Shown: piece by piece, positions 1,119 to 17,897 of the stretch | Numbering within the stretch: the first letter of the stretch is position 1 | Layout of the letters: each line of letters begins with the position of its first letter | From: a virus | Length of the DNA stretch: 31,192 nucleotides | Direction: 5' to 3' (one strand) | IMG/VR virus record: IMGVR_UViG_3300030116_005638 | Coordinates: 1 to 31,192 of that record | Notes under the pieces: model-generated | What the model was told of the DNA's origin: nothing | The model's database searches: none | What the model saw: the letters and a program-made list of their open reading frames with translations, nothing else | Program-made: the position numbers and the translations under genes

Positions 1119-3461
1119 CTAACCTACCATAAACGGTTGATAAGCGCCAATACCTTTTGGACCCTTAAACATATCGCGTGCTATGTCCGATAAACCGGCT
1201 ACACCGCCATCTTTCATCGGTTGACCACCGATAGCAGAGGAAACTAAAGACTCTTTATTAGGTCGGTCTATCAACAATATGTGACTGACGGAACCAACAT
1301 CCTCATAATCATTGTAATAAGGTATCGAGGTGAACCCCTCATCAGCTAATTTTTTTCTAAACTTTTTTACAGCTTCGCGACCAAGATCCGATATATCTCC
1401 ACTAATTGAAGATACTTTTTTAATGGAAGCTGGGTCAATATCTTTAGGTATATCATTACTTATTGCAACTTGACTAGGAGTGAGTTCATAATCATAAAAT
1501 TGTTTACCTTTTTTTGCTTTAATAACCGCAGGATCTTTTTCCACAACATTATCTATAATCCATTCATGCAGATCGTACTCTGACCAAACTCCATCACCTT
1601 GAGGATCTCGTGGATTTTCAAAGGGACGACTTAAATCTGCTTTTAAAGGGAAAGTAGCTCCTTGAGAGGAGATAGTAGATCCTGTGTCTTGTATGTTTTC
1701 AAATCGTTCCTTAGCCGCCTGTTTTGTGCCTACGTGCAATCCTAAATTATCTAAGTAACTCGTAGAATATTCTTTCACACGTTCATCAATAACATCCATA
1801 TCAAATTTTTCAAAATCTATAGGTAGAGCCTTATTTGTGTCAGGGTCTTTTACAGGGGTATGATAGTGATACACTTTATCAAACTTAAATTGGGGATAGC
1901 TTTCACTATAAGATTTTATTAAATCGTAATCAGAATCAAACTCACCCTTAGCTTCTTTAATTTTCTTAACCACCGCTTTCTGTGTTAATCCGGGAGCTTT
2001 CTCTTTGATTACCTCATAGCCTAAATCACCTGCTGCGGCGTCTATAACATCTCTGTAATTTTTACCGCCGGTCACAAATACTTTGTCATAGTCCCCTGCA
2101 ATAGTCTCTCTAATCGTTTTCATTTGTTCTGGGTCATTAATAAACTTATCGCGTATCTCTGGAGTCATTAGCTGATCGTATTTCTCTATTGGAGTATCCG
2201 AGCGTATAAGTCCGTGTTTCGCGGACAGTATAGCTATGTCCACGTTTGGCGGTATGCCTTCTGCTTTCATTTTAGTAAATAACATACCCGTATATCTATC
2301 TAATGCTTTCATGTTACCAACATCTGGGCATTTGTTTTCACTACAAGAAACAATCAATAACTGACGACCCTGCTTAGATTCTGAAGGAAACAAACTTGAT
2401 CCTTGTCCACTTTGAGGAAGCATCTTAGGTAAATTCAAACCAGAGAGATCCATAGGAGGCAAACCACCCCTTTTATCGTCGGATAAGCGTAGAGCCCCAA
2501 GAACTTCCTCAGCAAAGTCCTCTGCCATCTGGGGTCTTAGACCCCTGTCTGTAATTGCCCTGTCTAGCGCCTCTTGAACCTTAGGCTCTCTAAGGGGATC
2601 TAGCGACCCTACTATCTCTCCTTTTTTATTTCTAAAATTATGAACCACCTTATTTGTCAAACGTGCTAGTTCTACAAACTCTTCTTCAGGCATCTTCATA
2701 AAGTCTTCATAGCCTTTGCCCTTGACCAACTTCTCTACCGTATCATTTAGCTGCACCGTCACAGCGTTCATTTCGTCATTAATCTTATTTGTTCGTGTTA
2801 AATAGTCCGAAAGCGCTTCCGTTGTTTCAATAGCATTACTCATACGATTGCTACGTTGATTAAAAACCTGATCCTTCTTGAAGCCTAGATCACTTAGCTT
2901 GTTTGCAAGGCTCGTGGCTAGTGCTAGACCAGACTTAGCTCCCGCTTTTACTGCTTTAGTTGTAGCACCCGACGGCAAAACATCGCCTAACTCTTTTATG
3001 ATTGAAGGAGAAACAGCCGTGGCCACCGCAGCTGCGCCAGCTTTCTTTAACAAATCTCTGCGCGATAAATCCACACCTGTAGCTGTCTGCTGAGGCAAAA
3101 CAGTCTTAGAGCCTCTCGGCAAGCCTTTAACAAGCTGATTAATAGGTATCAAAGAGGTAAGTGCTTCCGCCGATAACATACCCGCAATTCCTGCTCCGTA
3201 CTCATCTTTAGGTATCGACGCAATATCCTTGTATGTGCCTACATTACCTGCGGCCATCAAATCTTTGAATGTCTGGGACCCGCCAACTGGCTTTTCAGAA
3301 AAAGGCTGCATCCCCTGCTTACCGGGTAAAAGATTTAAAAGAAGAGGAGCCATGTTAACCATGTCCACAGGAAAGCCCAAAATCTGTGCTATACCGGTAT
3401 TTGCTCCTTTTACAAAAGCCTTCGCTTTTTTCTTATCGCGTTCCGTAAACAGATCCGTCAT
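1119..3461 (-). CDS. 780 aa multidomain virion-associated protein: DUF6884-like plus ADP-ribosyltransferase-like regions
   Basis: Its start overlaps the terL stop by one base (TGATG), so translation is coupled to packaging genes. Residues 133-150 contain SRRDLLK followed by an Ala-rich hydrophobic run that looks like a twin-arginine motif, but it is internal. Residues 367-480 resemble the DUF6884/YaaA-like family: LLIVSCSENKCPD, YTGMLF, then ILSAKHGLI and IEKYDQ. Residues 529-735 resemble ADP-ribosyltransferase-like regions of phage polyvalent proteins: VYHYHTP, LGLHVGTKQAAKERF, a TFPLKADLSRPFENP strand, and a C-terminal EGFTSIPYYNDYED then SHILLIDRP. The tail (MKDGGVAGLSDIARDMF) is of a type common in marine phage virion proteins. 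A protein between terL and portal with these modules may be packaged and injected. No domain search was possible, so the two domain calls are by eye. Confidence 0.6.
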   Translation of the reverse strand: MTDLFTERDKKKAKAFVKGANTGIAQILGFPVDMVNMAPLLLNLLPGKQGMQPFSEKPVGGSQTFKDLMAAGNVGTYKDIASIPKDEYGAGIAGMLSAEALTSLIPINQLVKGLPRGSKTVLPQQTATGVDLSRRDLLKKAGAAAVATAVSPSIIKELGDVLPSGATTKAVKAGAKSGLALATSLANKLSDLGFKKDQVFNQRSNRMSNAIETTEALSDYLTRTNKINDEMNAVTVQLNDTVEKLVKGKGYEDFMKMPEEEFVELARLTNKVVHNFRNKKGEIVGSLDPLREPKVQEALDRAITDRGLRPQMAEDFAEEVLGALRLSDDKRGGLPPMDLSGLNLPKMLPQSGQGSSLFPSESKQGRQLLIVSCSENKCPDVGNMKALDRYTGMLFTKMKAEGIPPNVDIAILSAKHGLIRSDTPIEKYDQLMTPEIRDKFINDPEQMKTIRETIAGDYDKVFVTGGKNYRDVIDAAAGDLGYEVIKEKAPGLTQKAVVKKIKEAKGEFDSDYDLIKSYSESYPQFKFDKVYHYHTPVKDPDTNKALPIDFEKFDMDVIDERVKEYSTSYLDNLGLHVGTKQAAKERFENIQDTGSTISSQGATFPLKADLSRPFENPRDPQGDGVWSEYDLHEWIIDNVVEKDPAVIKAKKGKQFYDYELTPSQVAISNDIPKDIDPASIKKVSSISGDISDLGREAVKKFRKKLADEGFTSIPYYNDYEDVGSVSHILLIDRPNKESLVSSAIGGQPMKDGGVAGLSDIARDMFKGPKGIGAYQPFMVG

Positions 3462-4906
3462 CAGTAGTACGCTCTTACTTGCACGTTGTTGTCATCCTCA
3501 TCCCAGTCATCACTTGGCAGCTGCACAAAATTACCCTGACGATACCGCATCAAAGCCTGTGTCATACTATCCACTAGGTCATCATACTCCCCATTTGGAA
3601 AAGCTGCAACCTCCTCTATCATCTCATCCGCAAACTTTGTGTCTGGTGCGTACACCATGCCTGCTTCAAAAAGAACCGATACAGAGTGCACGCGCGTCAC
3701 CTTATCATTACCTTTACTTGGTGTAAAGTTGACAACAGGTATACCCATGTTCCGTAGTTCGTGGGTCAAGGGCAGCCCCGTCGCCTTTGCCTCTATGATT
3801 ACCGTATCCGGCTCCCAGTACTTATACTGATCCAGCGCTACCTCCTTTAACTCAGGGAAGTCCCACCGATCCTTCTGACTATCAAGAAGTATCAACGCCG
3901 GGGGTCCCCCCGCTTCTTCAGGATAAAACACACCCCATGTCGTAATCGCACTATAGTCCGATGTCTCGCGTTTCGTGAACGCCGTATCGTAGCTCTGTAT
4001 TACAAACTCAAGGTTCGGCACATTCTTTTGCTCCCATCTCTTCCACCACTCTCTGGGTATAATAGCATTCTCTTCACCTGTCGGGTTCTGCTGATACTGC
4101 GCGTTCCATTTGCTGGGTGGTATAGATGCGCGGACCGCTGTCAAATCATCGAGGCTCCAGAACTCTGGCCAACAGGGGGATCCATCCTCAAATATCGCCG
4201 GTAACTCTACAACTTCCCACTGGTCGGCTAATTCATCTTTCGCCATCGCACGCATCAGCTGTCCCGTCATATCCTTCTCGGACCATCTTGTCTGAACCAA
4301 AACAATACTGCCACCCGGCTGTAGTCTCTGTCGGGGGCCCCCAGTGTACCAGTCCCACGCATCGTCAAAACCTGTATTCGACATCGCGGTCTGTTCCGAG
4401 TGCGGGTCATCTATAATCACCAAGTCGCCACCACGACCCGCTAAGTTCGAACCCACACCAACAGCGTAGTACATACCCCCAGAGGTCGTGTCCCACCGAC
4501 CGGAGGCTTTACTATCCGCTGACAGATTAACAGACGGAAAGATCTCTTTGTAATCGTCACTATCAATAAGATTCTTGGTCTTACGTCCAAAGTTCACGGC
4601 GAGCTCGGTGGTGTGTGTCGCCTGAATAATTTTCATCTTAGGGTTTTTACCCATCATCCACGCAGGAAACAAGAAGCTGGCAAACTCAGATTTTGTATGT
4701 CTCGGGGCCATATTGATTATTAATCTCTTGAGCTCGCCACGTGCCACACGCTCCAGCTTTTCCGCGATAATTTTGTGGTGACGACCTGCAATAAAATCGG
4801 GCCACATATTTTTTACAAAAATTAAAAAGTCCTGTTGGCACTTCTCGTTTTTCTCGATTTGCGCAAGTCGTAACTTGAGCTTTGCCTCTTTCTCAGTCAG
4901 ATCCAT
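3461..4906 (-). CDS. terL: Terminase large subunit (ATPase and nuclease)
   Basis: This is the packaging motor: it cuts concatemeric DNA and pumps it through the portal with ATP. At 481 aa it has normal length. The N-terminal ATPase shows an atypical Walker A, NMAPRHTKSE (residues 65-74), with the usual glycines replaced, as in many Terminase_6-type proteins. Walker B is LVIIDDPHSE with D166 and D167. A coupling-motif region is seen at IVLVQTRWSEKD (201-212). The RNase H-like nuclease has its acidic residues at QSYDTAF (D307), VIIEAKATG (E372) and YDDLVDS (D442, D443, D446). The ATG is preceded by AGGGG about ten bases upstream. Its leader is the 570-base non-coding stretch carrying the parS-like site and the repeat array. 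The small subunit is not adjacent but about 6 kb away. Confidence 0.95.
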   Translation of the reverse strand: MDLTEKEAKLKLRLAQIEKNEKCQQDFLIFVKNMWPDFIAGRHHKIIAEKLERVARGELKRLIINMAPRHTKSEFASFLFPAWMMGKNPKMKIIQATHTTELAVNFGRKTKNLIDSDDYKEIFPSVNLSADSKASGRWDTTSGGMYYAVGVGSNLAGRGGDLVIIDDPHSEQTAMSNTGFDDAWDWYTGGPRQRLQPGGSIVLVQTRWSEKDMTGQLMRAMAKDELADQWEVVELPAIFEDGSPCWPEFWSLDDLTAVRASIPPSKWNAQYQQNPTGEENAIIPREWWKRWEQKNVPNLEFVIQSYDTAFTKRETSDYSAITTWGVFYPEEAGGPPALILLDSQKDRWDFPELKEVALDQYKYWEPDTVIIEAKATGLPLTHELRNMGIPVVNFTPSKGNDKVTRVHSVSVLFEAGMVYAPDTKFADEMIEEVAAFPNGEYDDLVDSMTQALMRYRQGNFVQLPSDDWDEDDNNVQVRAYY

Positions 4907-4934: not shown

Positions 4935-4949
4935 GTGCATAATATGCAC
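4935..4949. promoter_or_regulatory. Perfect inverted repeat in the terL leader
   Basis: GTGCATAATATGCAC has six-base arms around AAT and lies 29 bases upstream of the terL start codon. It fits an operator for a dimeric regulator better than a terminator, because no gene reads into it from the left. Related GTGC-containing words recur at 4994, 5018 and 5042. Confidence 0.4.
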
Positions 4950-5000
4950 GGTTTTTGGGCAGTTAACAAGAACTCTGTTTTTTGCCTATTTATTGTGCAT

Positions 5001-5016
5001 TGTTTCACGTGAAACA
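5001..5016. promoter_or_regulatory. parS: Perfect parS-type centromere site (ParB-binding palindrome)
   Basis: TGTTTCACGTGAAACA is identical to the chromosomal parS palindrome bound by ParB/Spo0J proteins across bacteria. A degenerate copy, TTTTTCACGTAAATAT, follows at 5025-5040 (11 of 16 identical), and a half-site-like GTGCGAAACA lies at 5043-5052. It is in non-coding DNA upstream of terL. No parA or parB gene is visible in this window, so a ParB would have to come from the host or from another part of the phage genome. The sequence match is certain; the function is inference. Confidence 0.75.
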
Positions 5017-5166
5017 TTGTGCGATTTTTCACGTAAATATTCGTGCGAAACATGGCCCTAGCTAACGTCTGCACAACCGCTGGTCGTGGTTTTCCGGTCG
5101 CGCGCACCAGATCAAAAACCGTGTTTTTTGCCTCGATTATCTAAGGATCCTAAGCGAAAAACTTGG

Positions 5167-5331
5167 CCAGCTGGCGGCGGATCGCGGCCAGCGGCTGGCG
5201 GATCTGGTGCGCTGGATCTCGACCAGCTGGCGGCGGATCGCGGATCTGGAACCGTGAACCGTGCACCAGCTGGCGGCGGATCTCGAGTCTGAACCGGTCG
5301 AGCTCGAGCAATGGCCAGCGGCTGGCGGATC
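5167..5331. repeat. GC-rich short repeat array, five copies of a 17-bp unit
   Basis: Unit CCAGCTGGCGGCGGATC occurs exactly at 5167-5183, 5223-5239 and 5266-5282. A variant, CCAGCGGCTGGCGGATC, occurs exactly at 5188-5204 and 5315-5331. GATC words and CTCGA spacers are interspersed. The stretch is far richer in GC than its surroundings. Open frames across it give Pro/Arg/Ser low-complexity peptides without ribosome sites, so I treat 5041-5430 as non-coding. The core contains the palindrome CAGCTG and could fold into hairpins. Shorter copies follow genes at 5463 and 6152. Confidence 0.75.
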
Positions 5332-5427
5332 TGAAAAAATCCTGGTCGGTTACAGGATAACGGCCAGCTATACGTTTCACCAGCTACACGGGACGCTGGC
5401 GGCGGCGTGATTAACTGGCAATTAGAC

Positions 5428-5455
5428 ACAAAAAAAGCGGCGCAAAGGCCGCTTT
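5428..5455 (-). terminator. Rho-independent terminator after the 67 aa gene
   Basis: Arms AAAGCGGC and GCCGCTTT (5434-5441 and 5448-5455) enclose a six-base loop and are followed on the minus strand by a run of T. It lies just beyond the stop codon at 5478 and closes the 6049-5478 unit. Confidence 0.85.
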
Positions 5456-5462
5456 AATTGCA

Positions 5463-5478
5463 CCAGCTGGCGCGGATC
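5463..5478. repeat. Dispersed copy of the GC-rich repeat (3' of a gene)
   Basis: CCAGCTGGCGCGGATC overlaps the first base of the stop codon region of the 67 aa gene and sits directly before its terminator. It is the 16-base short form of the array unit and is identical to the copy at 6152-6167. Confidence 0.7.
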
Positions 5479-5681
5479 TAAAAATCTTCTTCTATGATTT
5501 GAGCAAGCTTAGCAAGTTTTAAATGTGCTGGCATTGTTTCCGCTAATGTGTCGCGGATCTGGCCGTGCTCGAGCGCCACCAGCAAGTCGACACAGTGGTG
5601 GCCACATAAAGCTTCCAGCTCGAATAAAACGCTGGTAGCTTCTTTATTAACTGAACCGTCAGAATTAAGAACTGGCATCAT
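5478..5681 (-). CDS. Hypothetical protein, 67 aa
   Basis: Not recognised. The start overlaps the stop of the gene before it (TAATGATG), so translation is probably coupled; the second ATG, one codon later, is an equally good start. The sequence is mostly helical, with an acidic C-terminus (AQIIEEDF), and contains LCGHHCVDLL near residue 30, a Cys/His pair too small for a proper zinc finger. It is the last gene of a two-gene unit that ends at the terminator at 5428. The stop TAG leads straight into a copy of the repeat found in the neighbouring array. Confidence 0.65.
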   Translation of the reverse strand: MMPVLNSDGSVNKEATSVLFELEALCGHHCVDLLVALEHGQIRDTLAETMPAHLKLAKLAQIIEEDF

Positions 5682-10393: not shown

Positions 10394-10834
10394 GTAAAAA
10401 ATTTTATCCCATTGAAAAGGTTGTCTACATTTAAACTCTGGTTTGACCTTATCCAGACCGTCCATCTTCAGGTCTACAGCGTCAGAACCCTTAAACAAAT
10501 AGATCTCTGCTACATCAGACGGCGTGGGTTGTTTCTTTACCAGCACCCAGCACGAACCTTTCCCGTGTCTGGTCAGCCAAGCTACCTGTGACGGACGTAA
10601 GTCTACTTTATTGGTGGTAGTATATTTAAGCTCTACAAAATGAAAAGCACCCAGCTGGTCACACATTAACAGATCTGGTATTCCAGATCCCACCCAGTTT
10701 TCAATTCTGGTTAGTATCAGTTTGTAATTCGACCGACTCGCTGCTTCCTTTACTTGCTTGTAAAATCCGCTCTCTCGCTTTATTGCGGTTGCTGGTATTT
10801 TCTTCAGGTGTGATGTCGATTGTGACTGGGGCAT
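10376..10834 (-). CDS. VRR-NUC-like PD-(D/E)xK nuclease, 152 aa
   Basis: Small endonuclease fold of the kind that includes Holliday-junction resolvase-like phage nucleases; likely works on branched or packaging DNA. Visible motif: GIPD at residues 51-54, then FHFVELKYT with E68 and K70, and a SQVAWL helix (residues 82-87), which is the order expected in VRR-NUC proteins (PD...ExK...Q). A Glu (E21) in KRESGFYKQV matches the N-terminal acidic helix of the family. The first 45 codons overlap the end of terS in a different frame (134 bases). No better start exists downstream, because the E21 helix would be lost. Confidence 0.8.
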   Translation of the reverse strand: MPQSQSTSHLKKIPATAIKRESGFYKQVKEAASRSNYKLILTRIENWVGSGIPDLLMCDQLGAFHFVELKYTTTNKVDLRPSQVAWLTRHGKGSCWVLVKKQPTPSDVAEIYLFKGSDAVDLKMDGLDKVKPEFKCRQPFQWDKIFYLICPV

Positions 10835-11324
10835 AACTATTTTTGATCTCCTCTAATGCTTTCATTACTTCTTCCTTAGACATACTGTCTATGCTCCCGT
10901 GTCGTATTTCTGATTTATTCACATAGATATCGCCTTGCGCCATGCCTCTGGCTTTCTCAGCCATAACAGCCGCAGAGTAAGCACCATTCTGAAGCGCCAA
11001 ATCACGGATAGTTTGCAGATCACGGATATGCCTGTGAAATGTAATCCCGTACTTCTCGTCCAGCTCTCGCCTATATTCTTTGATAGCATGACATACGTGT
11101 GGTGATATTCTGGGGTTAGTGAGCTCATATGCTCTAGTATGTGCAGAGCCAACAGAGTAGCCAGCATTGATTGCCGCCTCTCTAAATGTTATCTGCCCGT
11201 CCTTACTTACCAGCTCTTTCACAAACAGTTCTTGCTTTCGTGTTAGTGGGCTATGTATATCAGCTGGTCTTCTTCCGCGTGTTTCGTATTGTATTCCTGA
11301 TTTAGTGGGTCTGCGTCTTGCCAT
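10701..11324 (-). CDS. terS: Terminase small subunit
   Basis: TerS recognises the packaging site on viral DNA and loads TerL. Residues 27-85 contain the DNA-binding helices in the usual text for this family: LTRKQELFVKELVSKDG, then FREAAINAGYSVGSAHTRA, then ELTNPRISPHVCHAIKEY. Residues 95-150 form the oligomerisation helices, with SKSEIRHGSIDSMSKEEV after them. The C-terminal 40 residues are polar. It is 207 aa, normal for the family. It lies 5.8 kb from terL, separated by the accessory module. The iteron-like cluster 120-220 bases upstream is a natural candidate for its own binding site. Confidence 0.85.
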   Translation of the reverse strand: MARRRPTKSGIQYETRGRRPADIHSPLTRKQELFVKELVSKDGQITFREAAINAGYSVGSAHTRAYELTNPRISPHVCHAIKEYRRELDEKYGITFHRHIRDLQTIRDLALQNGAYSAAVMAEKARGMAQGDIYVNKSEIRHGSIDSMSKEEVMKALEEIKNSYAPVTIDITPEENTSNRNKARERILQASKGSSESVELQTDTNQN

Positions 11325-16377: not shown

Positions 16378-17897
16378 ATTATGTAACTCCTCAATGCGTC
16401 TTCTGGCTCGATTAAATATAAGTTTTTTTTAGTTCGTGTTACACCGACGTAGAATACACGGTGCAGTTCGTCAGGGTCACTCTCTGCTGCTTTTGAGGCG
16501 GCAGGAGATATATCGGTAAATAGCACAACGTTTTCGGCCTCGCCACCTTTTGATCCGTGGATCGTGGATAGCTGTATACGAGGCGTGCTGTTGAACTTCT
16601 CACCGCGTCGCAACAGCGCTGTAATGTACGCACGCTCGCTGTCGGGCATTTTGTCCATGGCTTCGTGCCATATCATATCTTTCGTGGCAAATAGACCATG
16701 ATGCTGCTGGAGCTCTTCAAGACCTACCGTTTCATCGTCCGCTAAATGCGGTAGCTTTTTAAACCCACGTTTTACACGTTTACCCACAGACATATAGGCA
16801 TATACAACACGCGCTACAGGGGTAGCTATCGCACGCCCCTTACGCATTTGCTCCCAGCCGTTAACCGCTTCACTTATCTTTTGCGATATGGACCTATGGC
16901 CGTGGTACGCAAACAGATGGCCACGACTACGTAAGGTTTCTACCATATCATACAGAAAGTACCCCGCTTGCGCCAGCACCAGCCATGTGCCCTCAGAAAA
17001 GTCTAGGTCATTTATGTCATACACACGCTTGAACGTGCCCTCATCAGGACGCGGTAGATATGTTTTAGGTACGCGCTTATGTATACGCTTGGATATACGC
17101 GAGGCTATCGGGTGTATGTTTTGTGGCACGCGGTACGATTGTTCAAGCACCTCATAACCACCGTCAAGACCGATGAAGTGTTCTACGTCTGCCCCAGCCC
17201 ACTTATATATGGCTTGATCGTCGTCGCCAGCACAATAAATCTTTTCAGAATATTTCTCTATGACATGAGCTACGTCCCATTGTAGCGGCGATAGATCCTG
17301 TGCCTCATCAATAAAGCTGACGCTAAGGTTAGGACAGAAGCGTGAGCTCTCGTTTACAAACAGCTCCAACATATCGGTAAAATCATACAGACGCAGACGG
17401 TTCTTGTAGCTTTGTAGGGACCGCGCTACATAGGATAGTGTTATCCAATCCACTGTGCTGTCTGATTTATTGTATTGTTCTTTTAACGATACCTTACGTA
17501 GCCGTGCTAAGTTTATGATGGTCAGATAGGGGTCACTGTTGCTTGTCTTGTCGAGTATGTTTTCATCTTCATTGACCTTATCTACAGTAATACTAATACC
17601 TATAGCATTAGATAGCTCACGATAGTGCTCAGGTTGCATGATTTGTTCGGCACGAATACCCGACAGCCGTAGCGCAAAGCTGTGTAGAGTACGAAACCAC
17701 GGCAACTGACTTTCGTTAAAACCAAAGCGCTGGCACGCACGGTCTACTGCCTCATAAGCCGCTTGGCGTGTAAAGGCAAAGTATCCTATCTTAGAGGGAG
17801 ATATACCTTGCGCTAACGCTTCATCGACTTTATTCAGTAGTGCTGTTGTCTTCCCTGTACCCGGTGGCCCGTATATTCTGAATATCTTTGTCTGCAT
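16374..17897 (-). CDS. UvrD/Dda-like superfamily 1 DNA helicase
   Basis: Unwinds DNA 3'-5' or removes proteins ahead of the fork; likely the replicative or recombination helicase here. Motifs in order: Walker A GPPGTGKTT (10-18), TLHSFALRL motif Ia (70-78), Walker B FIDEAQD (195-201), motif III AGDDDQAIYKWAG (223-235), motif IV LEQSYRVPQNI (251-261), motif V STIHGSKGGEAENV, motif VI VFYVGVTRTKKNLYLI (near 482-497). 507 aa. The first 68 bases overlap the end of the HTH gene; the only possible ATG precedes Walker A by ten residues, so the overlap is real. Downstream genes are coupled. Confidence 0.95.
   Translation of the reverse strand: MQTKIFRIYGPPGTGKTTALLNKVDEALAQGISPSKIGYFAFTRQAAYEAVDRACQRFGFNESQLPWFRTLHSFALRLSGIRAEQIMQPEHYRELSNAIGISITVDKVNEDENILDKTSNSDPYLTIINLARLRKVSLKEQYNKSDSTVDWITLSYVARSLQSYKNRLRLYDFTDMLELFVNESSRFCPNLSVSFIDEAQDLSPLQWDVAHVIEKYSEKIYCAGDDDQAIYKWAGADVEHFIGLDGGYEVLEQSYRVPQNIHPIASRISKRIHKRVPKTYLPRPDEGTFKRVYDINDLDFSEGTWLVLAQAGYFLYDMVETLRSRGHLFAYHGHRSISQKISEAVNGWEQMRKGRAIATPVARVVYAYMSVGKRVKRGFKKLPHLADDETVGLEELQQHHGLFATKDMIWHEAMDKMPDSERAYITALLRRGEKFNSTPRIQLSTIHGSKGGEAENVVLFTDISPAASKAAESDPDELHRVFYVGVTRTKKNLYLIEPEDALRSYII

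Follow-up and report, generated by a model that had tools for sequence, protein, structure and literature searches.

We report that a fragment of a viral genome carries a perfect parS word, the palindrome of the ParB/Spo0J consensus, and that this site, judged by comparison with related phages, is under strong selection. We consider it likely to be a working parS on a phage without a ParB domain of its own, which would make the phage DNA a client of host ParA and SMC. The source is a 31,192-base IMG/VR fragment, analysed over its whole length and hereafter called the window. The site and the features that surround it are as follows.

3461..4906, minus strand: terL, large terminase subunit (phrog_38, E 1.1e-106), the first gene downstream of parS
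4939..4966, minus strand: promoter-like TTAACT-16-TATTAT, between the parS site and terL
4983..4999, no strand: imperfect dyad TGCCTATTTATTGTGCA, adjoining the parS site
5001..5016, no strand: parS word TGTTTCACGTGAAACA, a perfect palindrome kept in relatives
5024..5053, no strand: imperfect inverted repeat forming a conserved upstream element, which includes a supposed second copy of the word
5434..5455, minus strand: terminator-like hairpin with a T run, ending the upstream gene cluster
10701..11324, minus strand: terS, small terminase subunit (PF03592, E 1.5e-7; phrog_51)

The original prediction placed an exact ParB/Spo0J consensus palindrome at 5001-5016, in non-coding DNA before terL, and both points hold: the word precedes the terL start codon by 94 bp and is the longest perfect palindrome of the window. 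It is a 16-bp inverted repeat that fits the parS consensus, with its tolerance at positions 5 and 12, and is unique to within three mismatches, the next-best match in the window having four. From the window's own base composition, 1.0e-5 exact matches are expected per window, close to the earlier estimate of about 7 per million. The site is flanked by the terminator-like hairpin on one side and the promoter-like sequence on the other. The latter is a weak match (one found versus 0.7 expected in shuffles), and its TTGTTAACTG stretch is conserved in relatives. The adjoining dyad at 4983-4999 reads TTGCCTAATTATTAGGCAA in many relatives and is decayed in the window, and the stretch at 5160-5480 is non-coding, with repeated CCAGCTGGCGGCGGATC-like units and no long conserved gene. 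The gene for the small terminase subunit lies about 5.8 kb upstream of terL, and a family A DNA polymerase, a primase and helicases were recognised among the window proteins, along with structural proteins. Integrase, repressor, ParA and ParB domains were not reported among the window proteins scanned, in agreement with the earlier statement that the window holds neither parA nor parB.

Relatives were picked by terL and not by the site, and many of the loci are fragments. The exact TGTTTCACGTGAAACA was found in 62 of 80 window-clade loci chosen in this way (64 of 80 if one mismatch is allowed), while 40 palindromes permuted from it, with the composition unchanged, had essentially no matches in those 80 loci (mean 0 exact). 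Among the 59 window-type loci that were well covered, terL having 1.3 kb or more of sequence before it and 1 kb or more after it, the site is present in 47 and absent from 12. Across IMG/VR at least 120 stretches carry TGTTTCACGTGAAACA, compared with 2, 9 and 5 for three control palindromes, two of which keep the CACGTG core. The 45-base flanks of the site average 72-73% column conservation in 34 distinct site-centred segments, themselves selected for containing the exact word. The word is conserved beyond chance and beyond its flanks. Absence of the palindrome from close relatives at the terL locus had been named in advance as evidence against the prediction; the word is kept there. A chance match, or contamination with host DNA, has nothing in its favour beyond the limited length of the word, and is so improbable that it can be set aside: very few exact matches are expected per window (1e-5), and the word is kept in most relatives and is present on long phage contigs. 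Chance was rejected on the base-composition expectation, the control palindromes and the permuted palindromes in relatives. No site within three mismatches was seen in the stretches read of CRP-901/902 and ct7L0027. Megablast against annotated phages returned no relative of the window, and a full-text literature search returned no report of parS sites in these phages.

In a related group of phages, clade C, the word lies inside the gene after terL, approximately 430-640 bases past the end of terL, where it reads V-S/P-R-E-T within a variable linker. To avoid selecting on the DNA word, we searched the 900 bases after terL with the peptide V[SP]RE[TSN]. All 45 of the 45 peptides found were spelled in DNA as the parS word or as a variant one base away from it (GTTTCACGTGAAACA 31, GTTCCACGTGAAACA 13, GTTTCCCGTGAAACA 1). 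Other synonymous codings did not occur, and the linker around the peptides varies in both residues and codons; the peptide was absent from 29 loci. As no instance departs from the parS word by more than one base, it is the DNA word, beyond the peptide, that is conserved in this gene, and conservation of V[SP]RET at the protein level was ruled out on the same grounds. In the clade C examples L469, L479 and L496, the in-gene word lies 435-550 bases after the end of terL.

Placement is variable elsewhere too. Upstream of terL, the window clade has the word either 84-151 bp away or, where another gene intervenes, at a distance of about 1.05 kb; in L157 it has been relocated to just upstream of another ORF, and in L413, L420 and L441 it lies downstream of a promoter-like stretch. 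On a terL tree (a quick FastTree of 239 rows, with gains and losses counted together), presence of the site changes 21 times and its location state 42 times, versus 126 times when shuffled. No constant position relative to one promoter was found, and the site is freely placed, on either side of the terL promoter, kilobases off, or in the next gene.

This freedom bears on two alternatives. The word could be the operator of a phage-encoded regulator that resembles parS by coincidence, as its position near promoter-like sequence and the other dyads flanking it in the window clade might suggest. We regard this as quite improbable, since the promoter geometry is not fixed, the word is conserved at the DNA level within a gene, its variation follows chromosomal parS variants, and the same word is found in isolates of unrelated phages; an operator fixed to a promoter was ruled out by the varying geometry. 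Alternatively, the site may act as a late-gene switch, in which host ParB silences the terL promoter at low copy number until replication dilutes ParB and frees late transcription. The site of the window clade lies about 34 bp upstream of a -35-like hexamer before terL, the intervening gene of other window-clade loci is likewise preceded by the site, as is the ORF in L157, and the intergenic parS3 and parS4 of P. aeruginosa repress neighbouring promoters (PMC5521831). Intragenic parS sites of P. aeruginosa did not repress, however (PMC5521831), and loss of Spo0J in B. subtilis left genes beside parS sites unaffected (PMC7022226). Geometry also counts against a switch, the site lying up- or downstream of promoter-like stretches, kilobases off, or in the gene after terL. 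Because the related clade has its site inside that gene, silencing of terL cannot be the general reason for the word. Within the window clade it is a real rival; as an account of the site we consider it unlikely.

Sister-clade variants of the word differ mainly at positions 5 (T/C) and 12 (A/G), giving TGTTCCACGTGGAACA, TGTTCCACGTGAAACA and TGTTTCACGTGGAACA, and these are words used by bacterial chromosomes as parS. A ParB from Hyphomonas has been assayed in vitro on TGTTTCACGTGAAACA as the wild-type parS (PMC6650430). That the phage might encode a ParB elsewhere in its genome, as originally proposed as one option, was not borne out: ParB_N (PF02195) was found in 0 of 22 records and HTH_ParB (PF17762) in 0 of 31, near-complete relatives being included in both sets, and a phage-encoded ParB was rejected on these counts. 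Among 50 further word-bearing records, two gave ParB_N at E <=0.001, one of them above the family cut-off. A phage-encoded ParABS, with parB and parA on the phage genome, was thus not found. As no ParB domain was found in near-complete relatives, ParB would have to come from the host. It is conceivable in principle that the word is read instead by a DNA-binding protein of the phage that has no ParB domains. Loading of host ParB on the site, raised in the original prediction, is strongly supported by comparison, that is, by conservation at the locus, variants of host type, free position and the lack of a ParB domain, and we think it very likely.

The supposed second copy at 5025-5040 fared differently. 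It had been described as a decayed parS, and its 11 of 16 matching bases are at chance level, about ten or eleven other stretches of the window matching TGTTTCACGTGAAACA at least as well. Across 34 distinct relatives its CACGTG core is not kept (core columns 44-68% conserved), and a decayed parS was rejected on this poor conservation; the AAAA to one side of the core is kept in the same 34. The surrounding element at 5024-5053 is also present in L147, L157 and L161, which have no adjoining parS word, and the stretch is therefore better read as one arm of what appears to be a separate conserved element. In a sister group (L420 and nine others), TGTTCCACGTGGAACA and then TGTTTCACGTGAAACA form a genuine pair, likewise spaced 24 bp apart, and because of this pair the stretch in the window and the second parS of the sister group may share a common descent.

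Which host supplies the ParB is a related question. The window word is of the Rhodobacteraceae type, TGTTTCACGTGAAACA being found in 37 of 41 Rhodobacteraceae genomes, often as a pair about 1.9 kb apart, and not of the Verrucomicrobiota type, where matches in the two orders sampled are TGTTCCACGTGGAACA almost without exception. Relatives with terL at least 81% identical fall in MAG bins of Verrucomicrobiota (three) and Rhodobacteraceae (one, L219, in whose 21 kb no site was found). The Verrucomicrobiota bins may be wrong; if they are right, the word does not follow the host. Assignment of a host from the MAG bins was rejected, the bins not being trusted because the Verrucomicrobiota parS word differs from that of the window. 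No tRNAs were found for host prediction, and a parS pattern search in the genus Pelagibacter, covering a single genome, gave little.

If host ParB loads on the site, this CTP-dependent DNA clamp would recognise the word and close around the phage DNA, and the clamps would then slide from the site onto the flanking kilobases. Loaded ParB would make the phage genome a client of host ParA and, where present, of SMC/condensin, so that, in the course of a long infection, phage DNA inside the cell could be positioned, distributed across it and divided between the daughter cells. The related phage HTVC027P is described as obligately lytic, with a latent period of approximately 18 h in SAR11 (PMC12753301), and there would therefore be time for host growth during infection. 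Against a role as parS, some relatives have no site (the 12 of 59 window-type loci above, and most of the HTVC027P type), and a site that part of the relatives do without is not essential. Nor is it obvious why a virulent phage should need to be partitioned faithfully, which speaks against a partition role. We put forward only tentatively that the phage gains by the segregation or positioning of its DNA.

Two other uses of host ParB have to be weighed. Replicating phage genomes could act as decoys, titrating ParB off the host centromere and stalling chromosome segregation or division. Five exact words in a 5.8-kb inovirus, and arrays of three to five words beside terL in L017, L044 and L053, are what such a decoy might look like, but titration favours more copies and the window phage and most of its long relatives have a single one; a decoy here seems rather improbable. 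The site could also be a landing point for SMC/condensin, which ParB recruits in many bacteria (PMC10197239), compacting or aligning concatemers near the packaging gene. Near-complete IMG/VR genomes (47-60 kb) carry one to three sites each, and in 10 of the 10 examined these lie within about 7.5 kb of terL, whatever their placement. This proximity is, however, partly inherited within clades, and most loci were sampled around terL; a packaging role of this kind would be a long shot. The reading we prefer is still that the site makes phage DNA a client of the host partition proteins.

The inovirus is L540 (bajarodino virus 69, 5843 bases), with exact words at 712, 1182, 2767, 4108 and 5764. The arrays lie at 10535-11462 in L044, 2657-3444 in L017 and 240-961 in L053, which belong to a different TerL lineage (28-29% identical to the window TerL); no ParB_N was found in these three records.

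Among cultured phages, those closest by TerL are the pelagiphages HTVC027P (61% identity) and HTVC023P (54%), together with the lake phage DSL-LC04 (58%). The HTVC023P/HTVC027P-type pelagiphages are virulent phages of about 60 kb, related to the window phage through TerL, and the HTVC027P-type clade is mostly without the site, which is carried by 4 of its 80 terL-chosen loci. HTVC027P itself (L207) has a single word with one mismatch, CGTTTCACGTGAAACA at 16412-16427, which lies about 4 kb upstream of terL and apparently within a nuclease-like ORF, and HTVC023P has no word within two mismatches.

The phi29-type phages of Bacillus are a known precedent for a host-type parS word on a phage genome. 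Meijer et al. are said to have described in 2005 how host Spo0J/ParABS is used for trapping a phi29-type genome in spores. Judged from sequence, the window-type phages share with these Salasmaviridae the combination of a virulent phage, a host-type parS and no ParB, the phi29-type phages being small, virulent and without ParABS; neither integrase nor repressor was among the 25 of 31 families listed for G015. The two are otherwise unrelated: phi29-type phages are terminal-protein phages of a spore former, whereas window-type phages are terL/portal phages of aquatic bacteria, with the site at another genome position, conserved as a single site clade-wide, and with an in-gene version. Compared with chromosomal parS of the bacterial ParABS-SMC system, the 16-bp word is identical and equally tolerant at positions 5 and 12, but here it is carried by a phage rather than lying near oriC, and neither parA nor parB accompanies it. 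The phage-plasmid systems P1, N15 and RedRock likewise place a centromere site on a phage genome; they differ in having their own ParA and ParB and private centromeres, whereas no ParB domain was found here. The centromere of mycobacteriophage RedRock consists of 8-bp direct repeats (PMC7157519).

Isolates from unrelated phage families also have the exact word, according to a short blastn search of annotated phages. In Bacillus phage BSP11, which is related to the phi29 type, one exact word is accompanied by one with a single mismatch; two exact words each were seen in stretches of Ruegeria phage vB_RpoS-V10 and of the Gordonia phages Hello and PatrickStar; Bacillus phage vB_BcoS-136 has four, and Butyrivibrio virus Arian and Spiroplasma phage 4 have one each. 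The records of the word-bearing Spiroplasma, Ruegeria, Gordonia and Bacillus phages are L539, L542, L544, L538, L545 and L541. It may be, although we hold this view with some reserve, that phages of many unrelated families have, again and again, picked up the centromere word that their own hosts use (large-terminase phages of sea and lake, Salasmaviridae, tailed phages of Gordonia, Arthrobacter and Ruegeria, gut Microviridae and inoviruses), the phage word tracking the host word in a general and overlooked parS parasitism from which hosts could be predicted.

In summary, a centromere word is conserved in abundant aquatic phages, even under protein-coding constraint, and these phages, a marine family, probably plug their DNA into the chromosome-handling machinery of the host. 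To our knowledge, the host functions that virulent phages are usually held to exploit do not include the proteins of chromosome segregation. If true, the parS word would also offer a new signal for host prediction, because bacterial groups such as Verrucomicrobiota and Rhodobacteraceae differ in the parS word that they use.
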